Of a stretch of 62,859 nucleotides of DNA, positions 6,184 to 53,790 are shown one piece after another; positions within the stretch are counted from its first letter, which is position 1, and each line of letters starts with the position of its first letter. The stretch covers positions 1-62,859 of the forward strand of contig CALUYN010000010.1 in NCBI GenBank assembly GCA_944325025.1, read 5' to 3'. The notes under the pieces were generated by a model. That model was not told the DNA's origin. It ran no database searches and was given only the letters and a program-made list of their open reading frames with translations. A program made the translations under genes and the position numbers. Source of the DNA: Candidatus Gastranaerophilales bacterium. Its GTDB lineage: Bacteria; Cyanobacteriota; Vampirovibrionia; Gastranaerophilales; Gastranaerophilaceae.

Positions 6184-6209
6184 GTCATTCTGAATTTATT
6201 TCAGGATCT
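6184..6209. repeat. Dispersed palindrome, family A copy 3
   Basis: GTCATTC then TGAATTTATTTCA then GGATCT. It matches the 264-290 copy with only a C/T change. Confidence 0.75.
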
Positions 6210-6548
6210 CTTAAAAAAATCCCCCTCGCCCTTTGGGAGAGGGAGCAGTTGCGTGAATAAAGTGAACTTACAACTGCGGGTGAGGGTTTTATCGGAAGCC
6301 CAGAGGTCCAGAGGTAGGATGTCAAGCTAGTATCATTAATAAATTTTTGAACAATTTAGCCAAGCTATCTTTAAATGAAAATAGCCTGCCTTCCTGCCCT
6401 CCGGGCTTCTATTCTTCTGACTTCACCCACCCCTTTACTTCCCCTCCCCTCAAGGGAGGGGAAAAAGAAACCTCACACGAACCCTCTCCTTGTAAAGGAG
6501 AGGGGAAAATATATGCAAAATCAAGAAGCCAGATTAAAAAACTACGTT

Positions 6549-6559
6549 CCCCCCCCCCC
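6549..6559. repeat. Homopolymer C11 tract
   Basis: Eleven consecutive C in an AT-rich genome. On the plus strand an ATG at 6513 with purine-rich sequence upstream gives twelve codons that end exactly at the tract, after which the frame runs through repeat sequence to a stop near 6642. This resembles the ten-codon-plus-G10 layout of two pilin-like genes in the window but has no pilin sequence after it. It is probably a relic or coincidence. Confidence 0.6.
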
Positions 6560-6677
6560 ATCCGGTACTTCGTACCACCTTCTCCCACAAAGGGGAGAAG
6601 GAAGAAATAGGCTCTTCACGCTTCACTTAAAACAGAATAAGTAGGGTGGGATAAGCAAAGCGTTCCCACCAGATAGC

Positions 6678-7709
6678 TTATCCTTTCAATTTTTTGATAG
6701 CTCTGAACAATCGCTCTAACTTCTTTTCATCCGTACCTATACCGCAGAGAAGCATTGTTGAAATTTTATTTGTTTTCTCATCTTCAATATTAAAATCTTC
6801 ATAGAGCTTTTCTGACAGCTCATAACCTGTTATGCCATCTTTTTTTATTAGGATTTTTGTTATGTCATCCCCGCCAAAGTCAACATTAGAAACTGATTTT
6901 TTAAGAGTTTTAATACATTCAATAAGATTATCAAGTTTTTTTCTGCCTCTTTTGGAGTTTAAAAAATTTATATTCGCCTCAATACTTGCAAGAAGCGGAT
7001 ATGAAGGCGATGTAGTATTTATCATCGAAAGAGCTTTATCTGCATTCAAGCCGCAGTTTACATGTAAAAGTGCTGTAGGATTGAGCCCTCCCGCAGTCTT
7101 ATGAAGCGACTGAATTGTAAAATCAGCGATTTTAACGGCACTTTCGGGAAGCTTATCGGAAAATGGATAAAGTGCGCCGTGGGCTTCGTCAACAATTAAG
7201 TAAGCATTATTTTTTTTACAAATTTCTTTTAATGCTTTTATATCAGAAACAATTCCCTCATAAGTTGGAGATGTAATAATAACAGCCTTAACCCCTTTTA
7301 TATCAATAAGATCCGGTGTAGTTCTATCCGGCACTCCCCACTCTTTAATTATAGGCAGTTCATAATAAACAGGCTCACATCCCGCAAGTTTTACAGCGTT
7401 AAGATGTGAAGGATGCGCGTTATTCCATATTAATACCTTATCGCCTTTTTGAGTGCATGCCAGAACGGAAGCAATTATACCGCTTGTTGAACCGTTTGTT
7501 AGAAAGCAGGTCTGTTTTGTCCCGTAAATTTTTGCAGCATTATTCTGTGCTTTTTCTAGCGCTGACTGCGGATCATAAGCGTCAGTTTCTGATATATCAT
7601 ACTTATAAAACTGTTTGAATTTATGAAAAATAAAAAACTTTTGAGAATGTGACGGAGTCGTAAACAAAAGCTTTCTATTTTTTTCCCTTAATAAATTAAC
7701 AAGGCTCAT
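6678..7709 (-). CDS. Orn/Lys/Arg decarboxylase family protein (short form)
   Basis: A fold-type I PLP enzyme of the Orn/Lys/Arg decarboxylase major-domain family. Cofactor residues are visible: the GSTSG phosphate loop at 73-77, the His in NNAHPSH near 99, DEAHG at 174-178 (Asp174 pairs with the pyridine nitrogen) and SLHKTAGG with the Schiff-base Lys204. It would decarboxylate a basic amino acid to a polyamine or diamine. At 343 residues it is much shorter than the 450-490 usual for YaaO/SpeA-like members: the C-terminal domain is reduced to about 60 residues. Start ATG at 7709 has AAAAGG four bases upstream. The substrate is unassigned. Confidence 0.75.
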   Translation of the reverse strand: MSLVNLLREKNRKLLFTTPSHSQKFFIFHKFKQFYKYDISETDAYDPQSALEKAQNNAAKIYGTKQTCFLTNGSTSGIIASVLACTQKGDKVLIWNNAHPSHLNAVKLAGCEPVYYELPIIKEWGVPDRTTPDLIDIKGVKAVIITSPTYEGIVSDIKALKEICKKNNAYLIVDEAHGALYPFSDKLPESAVKIADFTIQSLHKTAGGLNPTALLHVNCGLNADKALSMINTTSPSYPLLASIEANINFLNSKRGRKKLDNLIECIKTLKKSVSNVDFGGDDITKILIKKDGITGYELSEKLYEDFNIEDEKTNKISTMLLCGIGTDEKKLERLFRAIKKLKG

Positions 7710-24057: not shown

Positions 24058-24899
24058 TTAGAAAAATTTAACTGGTTTAACGGTTTTTAAGGTGCATTTA
24101 CTGCCAGATGCAGCACTTGAACATTCTGCATGCTCTGTTACTCCTGAACAATATGGAGTACTGCTGTTAATAAAACCGGATTTGCAAGCGCCTTCTCTAA
24201 ATGAAACACTTTTTGACAGCCAATCAAGCTTTCTGCGGCCTGTATTGCTTATACGTTCATACTGTACGCTAGTCTGCAAGTACTCATTACTGCTGCCGCC
24301 AACATCTTTGCCGTCTACTGTGTTAAATGCAGGAATTACCTGTCCGCTCAGGGTTATGTAAAATGGAAATACATCTTCCCATAAAGTTGAACTTCCCTTA
24401 TCGCCGTCTATGTCGATGTAAACGGTATATCCATATTCTCCTGTATCAATCTGCACCTTATTAGGAATATTTGGAGTTACAGGCGGACTTTCAGGTTCAT
24501 CAGCGGGTACATCCTCGTCATCATCATTATCCTCTACAACTGGCGGAGCAGGTTCCGGCTCTGGTTCTGGTTCAGCGGGTCTTTCTACACATTGACAGCT
24601 CGCTTCATCAAAAAAAACATTTTCGCCTAAACTACTTCTAATATCACAGGCCAGTCGATCTGTATCAAAACAGCCAGGTTCCTCAGGTTCTGGAGCTGCT
24701 TCACATTTGCAGTTCGTAATATTATATACTTCATCAATAGCACAACTTGAGGGTTTTCTTTGTAGACAATATGCCGTAACATTTGGAGGATTATTGGGAC
24801 TATATAATTTCAAACAGAGTATACGCAAGCCGAAACCTTTTAGCGGAGCTTAGAGTCCACCCCCCCCCCGAAGCTAACTTGTGATTTGAATTTTTTCAT
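24058..24899 (-). pseudogene. Broken pilin-like gene with G10 tract
   Basis: The ATG at 24899 has AAAGGA upstream and ten codons (MKKFKSQVSF) ending exactly at a G10 tract (24869-24860). With ten G the frame stops after seven more codons. A G9 or G12 frame continues as WTLSSAKRFRLAYTLFEII, which looks like a prepilin processing site (A before YTLFE), then stops. The downstream frame from TTG 24828 to 24058 encodes a Cys- and Pro/Glu-rich domain with repeated PEPEPE, then YTVYIDIDGDKGSSTLWEDV, the calcium-loop-like segment also seen in the intact pilin-like proteins. The alpha1 helix is missing. Two disruptions suggest a pseudogene, though a separately started secreted domain cannot be excluded. 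Confidence 0.65.
24860..24869. repeat. G10 tract (C10 on plus strand)
   Basis: Ten G on the coding strand of the broken pilin-like gene, followed by TGGACTCTAAGCTCCGC. The 12-of-14 match of ACTCTAAGCTCCGC with the sequence after the other G10 tract (ACTGTAGGCTCCGC) marks a shared element. Confidence 0.8.
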
Positions 24900-24940
24900 A
24901 CGTTTTCCTTTCTTTACAACTTTATGACTATATTACACGG

Positions 24941-49336: not shown

Positions 49337-50413
49337 TTGATAACACCGGTATTTCAAAGTAAAAATAATAGTGCAGAACATCAGAACAACAAATATCATG
49401 ACCCTTTAAACAAAGGGATATTTGTAGTTTTATCAAATTCAAACGAAATAGGTACAGCAATTTCTGATATTGCGCCAAGGCTTGGCGCAGCTCTTTGGGC
49501 GCCTACATTCATGTATCTCGGTGCTGATATTTATGACAAATACAAAAATGACAAAGACAACTACGACCCTAGTGCTAAACGTGCATTTAAAAGAGCAATA
49601 TATCAGGCGCTTACATCAGTCGTTGCTATGCCTGCTGCAATCATTTTAGGTAAATATATAATTTCACCGCTCGGGAAACTTGACAAAACCGGAGTATCCG
49701 GCAATACAAAAGATGCAATCTACCGCCATACAAGAGATATAATATCTCAGGCACATGGATACGCATTTGAAAATTACGACAATTTTAAAAATGTTGTACT
49801 GACAACGCTGCAAAATACAATCAACAGCAGAAAAAATGAAACCAACACAAGCAATATTTTCAACCGGTATTACAAGAAAATATTTACTGGGAAATACCAA
49901 ATTTTAAGTAATGACGAGAGCAAAATACTAAAATTTGCAGAACAAAATGCAAAAAAAACATTCGAAATTTTTGAAGCACTAAAAAGCGGTGATACAAAAA
50001 AAGTTCCTAAAAAAATTCTAAATATATATAATAAAATACTTCCTAAAATGAAAGAAATGTATCACGAAGCAGACTATTCATATCAGGCTACAAGAAATGC
50101 TCTTATGGAATATCAAACATCACTGATATTTAAGAATAAACTTCTTAAAACAATAAGCGGTATAACAGTAATGTTCTTATTGACAAAACCGATTAACGAC
50201 TTTGTAGATAAACAAATTATGAAAAAAGTCATAAACCCTGGAATTGATCAAATTGCAAGTGCTTCAGTTAACGATTCACGCTTAAAGAAAATATTTAACG
50301 ACATGAAAAATAATGCTACTAATTTGAGCGGTAGAAACGCGAATACATCGAACCGCCCTGAGAAATTACAGACTCAGCCCGAATTGAAGTCAAAGGCTGC
50401 GGAATCTCGGTAA
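49337..50413 (+). CDS. Hypothetical helical protein with two hydrophobic segments
   Basis: A 358-residue protein, start TTG at 49337 with AAGGT upstream. Polar N-terminus, hydrophobic segments near 45-65 and 88-110 and another near 270-285, separated by long Lys/Asn-rich helical regions. No family motif is recognised; the style fits lineage-specific Gastranaerophilales proteins. The last 95 bases overlap the convergent CpaF-like gene, so its polar C-terminal tail (NLSGRNANTSNRPEKLQ) is encoded antisense to that gene. Confidence 0.6.
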   Translation: MITPVFQSKNNSAEHQNNKYHDPLNKGIFVVLSNSNEIGTAISDIAPRLGAALWAPTFMYLGADIYDKYKNDKDNYDPSAKRAFKRAIYQALTSVVAMPAAIILGKYIISPLGKLDKTGVSGNTKDAIYRHTRDIISQAHGYAFENYDNFKNVVLTTLQNTINSRKNETNTSNIFNRYYKKIFTGKYQILSNDESKILKFAEQNAKKTFEIFEALKSGDTKKVPKKILNIYNKILPKMKEMYHEADYSYQATRNALMEYQTSLIFKNKLLKTISGITVMFLLTKPINDFVDKQIMKKVINPGIDQIASASVNDSRLKKIFNDMKNNATNLSGRNANTSNRPEKLQTQPELKSKAAESR

Positions 50414-51611
50414 TATATTGACCGTCAACAAGTTTAGCAACCGTTTTTAGGGACAACGCAAGTGTTCTGGCAGGTTTTAGTTCTACAACGGATGTGACTT
50501 TTGAAGTTCCGTCAGACATCTTATTTATTTGCACAATATAATCATAATCTGATAATACTTTTTGTTTTGCAAATTTTTCCGGCAAAGCCTGCTGTTCAAT
50601 AAAAGCAGATACAAGTTTTGTAATTGCCGCATCAATTGAAGATGCTCTTAATGTAATTACTGAACCTTTCTTTTCTGACATATCTGTTAATGGAACATTC
50701 AAATCCGCAAAAACAAACTCGGGCGAAATTTTTAAAAGAGTTGAAACAAATGCATCTAGCTGCTCTTGATTATCAGGAATTAAAAATTTCATCAAATTTT
50801 CGCCATCAGTTGATAACTGAGGATATTTTTCGACAACAGCAAAGCGTTTGTCAGAAGCAAATACATTTATCAGCACATTTGAAAAGAAAGTTTTTCCGCT
50901 GTTAATATCACCTGAAATAACAATATTTTTGCCTTCAGAAACAGCAGATACTATAAAATCAAAAATTTCCTTTGATGTAATATTTCGTTCATAAAATGTT
51001 TCAATATCCGGTGTTAAAATCTTACGAACAGAAATATTTATGCCGTTTTCACTAACAGGAGGAAACATTACTGTAATACAATACTTTTCATTCTTTAAAT
51101 TCCAAATTTTTTTTGTGCTGTCAAATTTTACACCGCACAATTTAAAGATATTATTAACAGTCATTTTTATCTGAATTTCAGAAAGAGAAATCTCAGTATT
51201 TAGAATTTTTCCATCTATTTCAATATGAACATTTCCTGTACCGTTAACAAAAACCGCTGAGACATTGTCGCGGGAAAGCAGGTAATCAAGCTGTCCTAAA
51301 CCGGAAACAACATCATACAGGTTATTTGCAAATTTATCTTTTTGCAGGTCATCCGCAGAAAAATTAATCGAATTTAAATAATTATCTATAAAATTTCGGA
51401 TTAATTCTCTCTGTTTCAAATCACTGTACTCAAACCAGACAGGAGTTGAGTCAATTTTATTCAACAAAGCTGATTGCAAATCCGCTTCTATAGTGCTGAA
51501 ATCAAGAGAATTACTGAAGTTATCATCAGATTTTATAAGCTGTTCTGTGCCTTCATTGACAGTTTCATCTTTCTTTTTAAATCTATCGCTTAATTTACTG
51601 CTCTTTAACAA
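50319..51611 (-). CDS. Degenerate CpaF/TadA-type secretion ATPase
   Basis: A 430-residue homologue of the CpaF/TadA ATPases that drive Tad pilus assembly. The N-terminal domain keeps YDVVSGLGQLDYLLSRDNVSAVFVNGTG, and the Walker A is GDINSGKTF at 234-242. Later elements are eroded: the Asp-box region reads FAVVEKYPQLS; Walker B, normally IIVGExR, reads FVFADLNVP; the His box (TTIHANS in the family) reads ITLRASS. ATP hydrolysis is therefore doubtful. It follows the CpaE-like gene by two bases. Other Tad genes (cpaB, cpaC, tadB, tadC) are absent here. Confidence 0.78.
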   Translation of the reverse strand: MLKSSKLSDRFKKKDETVNEGTEQLIKSDDNFSNSLDFSTIEADLQSALLNKIDSTPVWFEYSDLKQRELIRNFIDNYLNSINFSADDLQKDKFANNLYDVVSGLGQLDYLLSRDNVSAVFVNGTGNVHIEIDGKILNTEISLSEIQIKMTVNNIFKLCGVKFDSTKKIWNLKNEKYCITVMFPPVSENGINISVRKILTPDIETFYERNITSKEIFDFIVSAVSEGKNIVISGDINSGKTFFSNVLINVFASDKRFAVVEKYPQLSTDGENLMKFLIPDNQEQLDAFVSTLLKISPEFVFADLNVPLTDMSEKKGSVITLRASSIDAAITKLVSAFIEQQALPEKFAKQKVLSDYDYIVQINKMSDGTSKVTSVVELKPARTLALSLKTVAKLVDGQYITEIPQPLTSIRAESVISQGGSMYSRFYRSN

Positions 51612-51613
51612 TT

Positions 51614-52783
51614 TTATACCTTTCCGAGCTTTTTAGCCAAATTTTGTCTGAAAACACTGTCTGAAACCATCAAAGCAAGATGTTTGTAACTTAAAGCCAC
51701 ATTTGAATCCGGATTTATTAAAGAAACTGGAACACCTTTGTTTATGGCAGACATCATTGTAAAGTAGTTATTCGGGATTTTCCAGTAAATATTTTTTCCC
51801 AACACTTCTTCTGCCTCTTCGGCGCTTATTTCATCATTTTCCATATAACGATTAATAAGAATTTGGATTTTTTCATCTTCCAAACCTAGTTTATCAAACA
51901 ATTCCATACATCTCTGGCAATTTCTCAAAGCCGGCAGATTTATTATTGTGACTAGAAAAATTAAATCGGAATTTTCAAGGGCATTAATAGCTTTGGAGTC
52001 AAAACCGCCCGATGTATCAACAACAACATAAGAAAAAGTATCACGCAAAATATCAAATAATTTTGTAATCTCTTTTGAAGAAACATTATCAGCCTGTTTA
52101 AAGTATGGAGGATCCGCCAGAACGTAAAGACTGGTATCTTTATATTTTTCAAGTGTTGAAAGAAGAAAATCCTCATTTATCTTATCAAGATTTTGAAGCA
52201 TGTATGAGATGTTAAAGGAAGGCTTCAAATCAAGAAAAGTAGTCACATCGCCGAGTTGAAAATTTAAATCAATAAGTGCAACGTTTTCTTTTGTAATTTT
52301 AGCAAGTTCCAATGCCAGATTTGTGGCAATTGAAGTTTTGCCGACTCCTCCCTTATTAGAATAGACTGTAACAACTCTGCATTTTGATTTTTTAGGCTTT
52401 GCACCAGTCATATCAAGGTAGTGCTTATTTAAAACTTCAAAAAATTCATCCTTAATTAACGGCAGAGAAAGAAAATCAGAAGCACCAATACGCATGGCGC
52501 GAATAACAATATCAACATCCGGCCTGTCAGAGAGAATAATAACCCTGCAGTTTTGGAATTCAGAAGTTATTTTAGAAACAAAATTAAGCGCCTGCTCTTG
52601 ATAGCCTGAAATATCTATTATTACAAGGGATTTATCTAATTCTTTAATTGCATTATAAGATTTTGTAAAATCGGATGATGCAGCAAGAAAATTAAACTTT
52701 TCAAATTCCTGTAAATATAATTTTAAAAGTTCACAGGTGCTTTGCTGCTCAGAAATTACAATTGTTGGAATACTTTGTTTCAT
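51614..52783 (-). CDS. CpaE/TadZ-like ATPase
   Basis: A 389-residue protein with an N-terminal atypical receiver-like domain (1-125; LVIIDISG keeps a possible acceptor Asp) and a ParA/MinD-type ATPase domain with the deviant Walker A KGGVGKT at 144-150, IDLNFQLGD, and the switch VVVDTSGGFDSKA. CpaE/TadZ proteins position the pilus machine at the pole or along the membrane. It has its own leaderless-type promoter and is coupled to the CpaF-like gene; the phase-variable pilin-like gene lies 48 bases upstream in the same direction. Confidence 0.85.
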   Translation of the reverse strand: MKQSIPTIVISEQQSTCELLKLYLQEFEKFNFLAASSDFTKSYNAIKELDKSLVIIDISGYQEQALNFVSKITSEFQNCRVIILSDRPDVDIVIRAMRIGASDFLSLPLIKDEFFEVLNKHYLDMTGAKPKKSKCRVVTVYSNKGGVGKTSIATNLALELAKITKENVALIDLNFQLGDVTTFLDLKPSFNISYMLQNLDKINEDFLLSTLEKYKDTSLYVLADPPYFKQADNVSSKEITKLFDILRDTFSYVVVDTSGGFDSKAINALENSDLIFLVTIINLPALRNCQRCMELFDKLGLEDEKIQILINRYMENDEISAEEAEEVLGKNIYWKIPNNYFTMMSAINKGVPVSLINPDSNVALSYKHLALMVSDSVFRQNLAKKLGKV

Positions 52784-52831: not shown

Positions 52832-53760
52832 CTACCAAGGATAATCATCTTTTATTTCCCAACCATCAAACATTATAAGCGCAGTACAATAAAAGTTTGC
52901 AGAAACACCTTCTTCAGGAGGATTATTACCGCAATATTCTTTTAAAGTTTCTCTGTCTAAGTTTCCGTATGCAAATGGTTTCAGCTTCATCTGACGTGTA
53001 CCGTCGAAGTAGAACATATACCAATCTCTACCAACGATATTAGGATTTTGTTTACCATTAATATCAACAAATATTAAAGGAGTAGAAAATACGTCAGAAT
53101 TCCCATTATAACTTATGAATAGAGTAACGCCATTTGTAAGTTCCATTAAATAAGCTTTATCCAAACCATATATACGTCCATCTTTTGTTTGTGGATTAAC
53201 ATATCCTAGATTTTTTATATTAGAAGCATAAAGAGGTTCAGATGAAAGCTTCAAATAAGGAGCAAGATAAGTTTCTGCAAAAGCTGTTACCAGTTCTCTG
53301 CCTTGATTGGGGTTATTGGGGTCTATGTCAGTAGCAGCAACCATTCCCCAACTTGAAATATCACCGTAATCAGCTTGGGCATGAAGAATTGCCTGAGATA
53401 AAATGCTATAAGTTTGTTCCAAGCGTTTTGCCGCAATCTGTTTTTGGTGTTTTACAATCATACCCGGAATTGTGATAGCGGCAACCACCCCGATTATGCC
53501 GAGGGTTATTAAAACCTCAGAAAGAGTGAATGCAACTTTTCTTTTTAGTGAAGGGTGAAAAGTGAAAAGTGAAGAGGATCTTTTAACGTCCCTCCCTCGG
53601 GGGAGGGATTGAGGGAGAGGGTTAGTGTCATCAAGAACGTCTGATTGACCTCCTGCCTTCCTGACATCTGGGCTTCTATCTAATTGACTAGCCTCTTTGC
53701 CTCCGGCGGAGCCTACAGTGCCCCCCCCCCGAAAATCCGTAATAATTTAAATCTCTTCAT
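52832..53760 (-). CDS. Pilin-like protein, G-tract phase-variable, off as assembled
   Basis: ATG at 53760 has AAAGGAG five bases upstream. Ten codons (MKRFKLLRIF) lead exactly into G10 (53730-53721); as assembled the frame then stops (GGG GGG GGG GCA CTG TAG). With G11 or G8 the frame is open to the stop at 52832. The G11 product of 309 residues has a leader of about 78 residues derived partly from dispersed repeats, then the prepilin site: KRKVA before FTLSEVLITLGIIGVVAA, with Glu+5, then a globular domain ending WEIKDDYPW. From GTG 53488 a 218-residue fragment without signal could be made. A G10 assembly error is the alternative. Confidence 0.8.
53586..53622. repeat. Dispersed GGGAGGG palindrome inside the pilin leader
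   Basis: Plus strand GTCCCTCCCTCGGGGGAGGG followed by ATTGAGGGAGAGGGTTAG. It is the inverse of the element at 7729-7756. In the open (G11) frame it is translated as TNPLPQSLPRGRD, part of the cleavable leader. Confidence 0.8.
53652..53680. repeat. Dispersed CTGCCTTCCTG repeat inside the pilin leader
   Basis: CCTGCCTTCCTGACATCTGG then GCTTCTAT. It matches CCTGCCTTCCTG..CTCCGGGCTTCTAT at 6384-6412 in the repeat mosaic. Confidence 0.7.
53721..53730. repeat. G10 tract controlling the pilin frame
   Basis: Ten C on the plus strand, ten G on the coding strand, starting exactly after codon 10. The sequence after it, CACTGTAGGCTCCGC, is shared with the 24860 tract. Confidence 0.85.
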
Positions 53761-53790
53761 AATTACTCCTTTCTTATACTAAAACTTTAG

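Follow-up and report, generated by a model that had tools for sequence, protein, structure and literature searches.

Does the run of ten G that separates a ribosome-binding site and start codon from a long pilin-like frame act as an on/off switch, and if so, at which level, DNA or RNA, is the frame decided? The question arises at positions 53760 to 52832 of the minus strand of the window, that is, the whole stretch of 62,859 nucleotides analysed here from a Candidatus Gastranaerophilales bacterium. The original prediction, made from the letters of this locus, had proposed an on/off switch for a surface pilin that is off in this assembly. Read across relatives, the sequences point to a genome-wide, mostly-OFF system of slipped-strand phase variation for pilins in Gastranaerophilales as the probable explanation, with the window G10 serving as one contingency tract. 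The genome-wide scale, the conserved flanks and the locking of tracts to one strand go beyond what had been predicted.

Architecture of the locus

The features of the locus, and a second tract of the same kind elsewhere in the window, are the following.

53766 to 53772, minus strand: Shine-Dalgarno sequence AAAGGAG (read from the sequence)
53731 to 53760, minus strand: leader MKRFKLLRIF, ATG 53760 and nine codons (sequence and frame reading)
53721 to 53730, minus strand: G10 tract, the proposed switch (one of 57 genome tracts of at least 8 G)
53708 to 53720, minus strand: conserved 3' flank CACTGTAGGCTCC, containing the assembled-frame stop TAG at 53715-53713 (sequence and flank statistics)
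53534 to 53719, minus strand: leader in the pilin frame, low-complexity, repeat-like DNA without a start codon (frame reading)
53471 to 53533, minus strand: prepilin N-methylation motif, expected cut A/F (PF07963 and TIGR02532 profile scores)
52832 to 53530, minus strand: mature pilin-like part through the stop codon (open frame; dN 0.26 and dS 1.46 against the own-genome paralogue L281)
24860 to 24869, minus strand: second motif tract, with the layout Shine-Dalgarno, ATG, ten codons, G10, then a truncated pilin-like frame (sequence)

The predicted anatomy proved base-exact on the minus strand: AAAGGAG is followed by ATG 53760, ten codons and exactly ten G at 53730-53721, and directly 3' of these stands CACTGTAGGCTCCGCC. 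As had been read, the assembled G10 frame ends GCA CTG TAG, and the three possible frames give an early stop, a later stop and a frame of 309 codons, the computed lengths being 15, 23 and 309 codons. The distance from 53760 to 53488 is indeed 272, one below a multiple of three, the pilin frame being offset by one base. This frame is open from 53719 to 52835 (295 codons) and reads KRKVA/FTLSEVLITLGIIGVVAA at the expected cut, and its first ATG, GTG or TTG is the GTG at 53488, within the mature part. The window protein scores 20.9 bits against PF07963 (cut-off 21.2) and 16.3 bits against TIGR02532 (cut-off 16.3). As in a homopolymeric contingency locus, the length of the 5' G tract decides between the full frame and an early stop. 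Words of eight G occur in the window as ten overlapping matches (three tracts) against 0.18 expected from dinucleotide shuffles, and a repeat search of the window returned nothing bearing on the G10 tract.

Several further observations concern the surroundings of the gene. Prepilin leaders are very long, low-complexity and repeat-like in the window (53534-53719), L058, L066 and others; in L058, the N_methyl motif begins 277 residues past the tract, and usual prepilin leaders are far shorter than that. Stretches similar to the window leader are also found behind other tracts. At 24500-24910 of the window (minus strand), a G10 is followed by a pilin-like frame, AYTLFEII, that ends at once and looks like a truncated pilin gene, and at 6200-6700 a G11 tract with T and A flanks lies in repeat-rich intergenic DNA. 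Directly downstream of the pilin, the region 50319-52783 (minus strand) encodes a CpaE-like protein (response-regulator receiver and ParA/MinD-type ATPase), followed by an ORF that matches nothing in Pfam and is CpaF-like by eye; both are possibly pilus assembly genes.

A genome-wide family of tracts

The window gene is one of many of its design. Its genome (G000; 1.76 Mb) carries 57 tracts of at least eight G, and many of them share a layout of Shine-Dalgarno sequence, ATG, about nine codons, tract and gene, with the long frame behind the tract usually differing from the ATG frame at length 10. C tracts in some genes are the same DNA motif on the opposite strand. Pfam N_methyl (PF07963) matched in all eight tract-borne proteins scanned, in seven of them above the cut-off, the window protein being the exception. 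One such gene (L086, 72-2060, minus strand) joins a pilin N-terminus to YadA-head repeats and an S74 chaperone domain; L090 and L092 start in the same way, and as assembled only L090 of the three is out of frame. A first look at the genus genomes (G000-G033) returned 10 to 200 candidates for the window pilin per genome, unconfirmed as genes, which suggests very large pilin families in the genus.

The tracts also lie in genes of other kinds. Among ten non-pilin ORFs, hand-picked for an open frame crossing or adjoining the tract, are three glycosyltransferases of family 2, a class that is commonly phase-variable, as well as one AAA domain with an M41 peptidase, one AAA domain and one DUF1796; EF-hand, DUF6781 and TMEM260-like matches fell below the cut-off, and one ORF had no match. 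In L069, L091 and the second ORF of L096, a Pfam domain spans a length-10 tract in frame. Length 10 is therefore the common length and not an OFF state in itself; it is the pilins that are set out of frame at this length.

Frame setting in pilin genes

The frame setting was counted in 130 deduplicated pilin genes drawn from several genus genomes, each with an ATG preceded by a Shine-Dalgarno sequence, a tract of at least 8 and a pilin motif; excluded were genes lacking such an ATG, those in which no pilin motif came within 170 codons and those with N directly behind the tract. The length class that brings the pilin into frame is 8/11 in 118 genes, 10 in nine and 9/12 in three, while the tract is 10 long in 106 genes and only 20 of the 130 are in frame as assembled. 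Weighted by cluster, the three classes amount to 87.5, 5.5 and 3.0 of 96 at 60% identity and to 11.4, 1.5 and 1.0 of 14 at 45% identity. By set, the main class accounts for 25/31 genes in G000, 24/24 in G001, 7/8 in G013, 11/15 in G009 and 58/62 among those fetched by pattern; the G009 regions, 18 of 20 of which were picked from TC-G10-CA places and are thereby length-biased, enter only these per-set frame figures. The distance from start to tract and the downstream phase vary yet compensate, such that three matching combinations make up 95 of 107 G-coding and all 23 C-coding genes. Such a one-sided offset, 118 against 3, is not predicted by plain slippage. Among the out-of-frame pilins of length 10, furthermore, a leader ATG precedes the pilin motif in 40 of 104 and any start codon in 64 of 104; such pilins could therefore be made without the switch, which weakens a strict on/off reading, and the window gene has no such codon.

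The one-sided offset would be accounted for by programmed frameshifting at the RNA level, in which length 10 is fixed, the DNA stays unchanged and slippage of the ribosome (-1) or of RNA polymerase (+1) yields a set fraction of pilin. Specifically, 98 of the 106 length-10 pilin genes share the same offset, which is exactly that of a -1 ribosomal or a +1 transcriptional slip, and the length-10 frame meets a stop after a median of 1-3 codons (five sets), the remaining frame after 8-10.5; a nearby stop is found at some recoding sites. However, the C tracts, whose RNA differs, have the same offset (18 of 18 at length 10), and tracts of 9, 11 and other lengths occur both in and out of frame among the 130 genes. 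The three non-pilin genes named above are, moreover, in frame at length 10 across a Pfam domain, and no consistent fold was found behind the tract in four genes (z -1.43, 0.06, -1.50 and 0.92; a fifth stretch, L231, was not directly behind the tract and was left out). Since the orientation of the tracts is, in addition, set by the replication strand and not fixed with respect to the mRNA, frameshifting at the RNA level is an unlikely account of the family.

A DNA motif locked to the replication strand

The tracts sit in a conserved DNA motif, YTC-G10-CR-n-RGCT (n = 4-8). A sum over 17 genus genomes gives 534 occurrences of TC-G10-CA against two of the reversed string. As the stretches L104-L213 were fetched with a pattern that fixes part of the flanks, figures for flanks and length rest on the stretches from G000, G001 and G013: of the 94 tracts of at least nine G in these, 77 are exactly ten long, 82 have C on both sides and 66 have RGCT 4-16 bases downstream, compared with five in the mirror position upstream. 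The nearest flanks are common to G-coding and C-coding pilins, so that the constraint seems to be on the DNA and not on the peptide. The pattern TTCG8-N0-6-CACTNTARGC occurs in at least 80 stretches of genome contigs; among the 80 matches listed, Gastranaerophilales, Melainabacteria or uncultured-bacterium records account for 79, and the last, perhaps by chance, is from Gloeomargaritales.

The motif is, furthermore, confined to one strand over long distances. All 13 G000 contigs with two or more C-flanked tracts carry them on a single strand (40 tracts), and the five contigs of G013 hold 35 tracts with two strand switches. In G013, third-position GC skew changes sign near 240 kb on C2, where the flanking tracts lie at 201 and 305 kb, and within the 50-90 kb interval of C1, where they lie at 35 and 374 kb. 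Across 28 segments, several of them with skew that is weak or conflicting in plus versus minus genes (e.g. L238, L239, L242, L243, L253), 45 of the 46 tracts place their G's on the leading strand as the skew defines it, with genes pointing either way; leading here denotes the G-rich strand by GC-skew convention, and the origin was not located. The sole exception is the G11 tract at 6549 of the window, which lacks C flanks. Plain GC skew tracked gene strand and was too coarse, and third-position skew, taken separately for the genes of each strand, replaced it. By the usual convention, the plus-to-minus switch near 240 kb of G013 C2 is terminus-like. As a candidate for the point of strand switching, dnaA was rejected, lying away from the switches in G013, and Rfam scans of 14 G013 stretches found only tRNAs and one SRP RNA and no origin or terminus marker.

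In 766 kb of two related genomes, with L236, the switch segment, left out and each contig part given its strand sign by the skew, short G runs are divided almost evenly between the two strands, 641/545 for four G, 74/62 for five and 7/8 for six; runs of seven and eight are absent, and runs of at least nine G stand 43 to 0. The longest ORF following these 43 runs is co-directional in 25 and head-on in 14, and four are followed by none of 100 codons. The window's own genome has four tracts of 8 G. Tract strand thus follows replication while genes are transcribed either way, which argues for DNA replication and against ribosomal or transcriptional frameshifting. The conserved motif and the strand locking go beyond textbook phase variation.

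These properties raise the question whether the motif serves another DNA process altogether, be it site-specific recombination, cassette exchange or a chromosome polarity signal, with the effect on the reading frame being secondary. Its flanks are kept across unrelated genes in both coding orientations, 5' modules are common to different genes and the strand polarity resembles that of FtsK- or Chi-type signals, which are likewise strand-polar. A general polarity signal, however, would have no need of lying about 20-40 bases past a pilin start codon with compensating frames, as many tracts do, and this explanation is very unlikely.

Relatives, orthologues and selection

The original prediction had looked to related genomes for the same tract, and a G or C tract of 10 or 11 is present in the leader at six of seven other-species loci. 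At E <1e-40, the window pilin matches ten places in 7 of the 34 genus genomes, with 36-66% identity apart from itself. The leader tract is C10 in G030 and G005, G10 at two places in G012 and in G019, and G11 in G009; the G033 locus has no leader tract and starts 95 bases from a contig end, and its leader may therefore be cut. The offset equals the window's in five of the six tract-bearing loci; in G009 (G11) it differs, and the gene is likewise out of frame. Within the window's own genome, the paralogue L281 has G10 and the other match is a contig-edge fragment. Among the 34 genus genomes, the window locus has no close orthologue for a comparison of lengths, the best other-species match being at 64%.

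Elsewhere in the genome, an orthologous pilin is preceded by C9, out of frame, in G000 and by C11, in frame, in G009, with flanks that are 98% identical upstream and 93% identical downstream. The orthologue search yielded 8 pairs, and 23 after adding the G009 regions and loosening the limits (one of them, L238, adjoins N's); tract length is equal in 17 of these 23 pairs alike on both flanks, a count that speaks against switching, and most of the pairs are paralogues or distant. Of the two near-identical G000/G009 pairs, L045/L199 differ in length, and L042/L133 both have G10 with one flank base different. Counting the window pilin and L281, whose dN and dS are given above, dN is below dS in all five computable of seven pilin pairs, with two dS undefined, four above 1 and some near saturation; the window pilin appears to be still under selection. 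The many paralogues of the same design, the natural in-frame and out-of-frame alleles, the orthologous pair among them, and the excess of dS over dN thereby lend support to the predicted on/off switch.

Tracts of at least nine occur in 33 of 34 genus genomes, and 45 of 68 genomes of the family have at least one tract of exactly 10. These exactly-10 tracts reach high density in the window's genus and, for g4, g7, g8, g81 and g82, in some or all of the members sampled, with few or none elsewhere; the g8 genome mostly has T in the 3' flank, and a few of the listed contigs of g7 and g8 carry tracts on both strands. Loss of MutS was rejected as a cause, MutS1 being present above the cut-off in 33 of the 34 genus genomes. 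Matches to mutS1 with internal stop codons were seen in G010, G011, G018 and G028. Resetting of the tract by a reverse transcriptase, for instance by retron DNA annealing at the lagging template, was likewise rejected as a general cause: PF00078 occurs in 13 of 34 genus genomes and in neither G000 nor G013, both of which carry tracts.

The same comparisons bear on two further readings. If the consensus were in error and the true lengths were one longer, the genes would simply be expressed; this would fit the error-prone nature of homopolymers and the single-base offset that most pilins have in common. But G11 does get assembled (in 11 of the 130 pilin genes, nine of them in frame, with C11 in two more), a domain spans the tract in frame at length 10 in three non-pilin genes, and, to judge from contig names, assemblies made with different assemblers in different projects repeat the same length, so that such an error is highly improbable. 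Barely credible, finally, is that these are decayed pilin copies without function behind a spreading repeat, for despite the common 5' module, the repeat-rich leaders and the truncated look of the second window locus, pilin frames of at least 200 codons are open, dN is below dS where measurable and the same offset recurs across sequence clusters (87.5 of 96 by weight at 60% identity).

A model of the proposed switch

Under slipped-strand phase variation, the preferred reading, replication slippage would change the length of the G10 tract by one. At length 10, translation from ATG 53760 would stop just past the tract (OFF), while at an in-frame length it would continue into a type IV prepilin, the cut by prepilin peptidase being expected between A and F. 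The window switch would be one of many in the genus, with the common length OFF and a minority in frame in each assembly, and the leading-strand position of the motif, independent of gene direction, suggests that the switch acts at the level of replication. A longer ON state might decay fast to 10, each pilin presumably being on briefly and rarely. Slippage at replication explains why on/off alleles exist, why the common length lies close to the equilibrium known for G tracts and why strand matters; the accessible part of a review notes that the rise in substitutions caused by G tracts is seen more often on the leading strand (PMC10710837). Beyond the anatomy, the family, the frame statistics, the strand locking and the one orthologous length difference, which are observed, the model would entail reversible switching within a population and protein production when in frame, and it may contribute to surface diversity towards host or phages.

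A stronger, tentative variant posits a dedicated switch at the DNA level. Specifically, a replication-linked factor might read the leading-strand-only motif YTC-G10-CR-n(4-8)-RGCT, hold the tract at ten and make one-base steps, such that many pilins facing either way share a mostly-OFF setting. This would explain the gap at seven and eight G in the two genomes, flanks common to unrelated genes, strand locking and the one-sided offset; the variant is founded on the one-sided offset and the lack of short relics in two genomes, both left unexplained by plain slippage. This possibility appears less probable than not at present. In either form, switching would mean that pili vary by phase on a large scale in uncultured gut relatives of cyanobacteria. 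It would also provide a clean example, found in nature, of hypermutable tracts placed according to replication strand and not gene direction, thereby making strand-dependent slippage directly testable.

Comparison with known systems

A literature search for Gastranaerophilales and phase variation found nothing, which is a weak absence as most subscription papers lay outside the search. In the accessible parts of the literature, work on Melainabacteria and phase variation concerns flagellins, and there is literature on pilin in Melainabacteria and on pili in Gastranaerophilales, including type IV pilus genes in a termite-gut member (PMC5877343). For replication-strand-locked tracts, no title or abstract opening on the subject was returned, again a weak absence with subscription papers mostly outside the search.

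Programmed -1 frameshift sites, for example in dnaX and IS elements, combine a slippery homopolymer with a fixed offset and a nearby stop, and the pilin tracts resemble them in all three respects. Unlike at such sites, orientation here is given by replication and not by the mRNA, G and C serve alike and the four genes folded have no consistent RNA structure downstream.

The poly-G/C phase-variable pilus and surface genes of Neisseria, such as pilC, are similar in that homopolymer slippage affects pili. In Neisseria, tracts switch pilus accessory genes, and one pilin varies by recombination with silent copies, whereas here many separate pilin genes each have their own leader tract. For N. meningitidis, the accessible part of one study gives 115 genes predicted to be phase-variable (PMC5084427).

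The tracts are also like the loci of Campylobacter jejuni, where, as far as the accessible parts of the sources go, G/C tracts of about 8-12 lie in surface and glycosylation genes and one-base changes switch frames. Conserved flanks and strand-locked G's, both biases measured on the Gastranaerophilales side only, distinguish the present tracts. In C. jejuni, according to the part of the report accessible, insertions are favoured at G8 and deletions at G11 or longer, this mutation bias keeping tracts mainly at G9 and G10, and mismatch repair is lacking (PMC8355987), whereas MutS1 is present here. Finally, a further source on C. jejuni, accessible in part, describes 29 variable regions and gives in-frame lengths of 9, 10 or 11 depending on the gene (PMC3025981), whereas in the pilins of Gastranaerophilales one class dominates.
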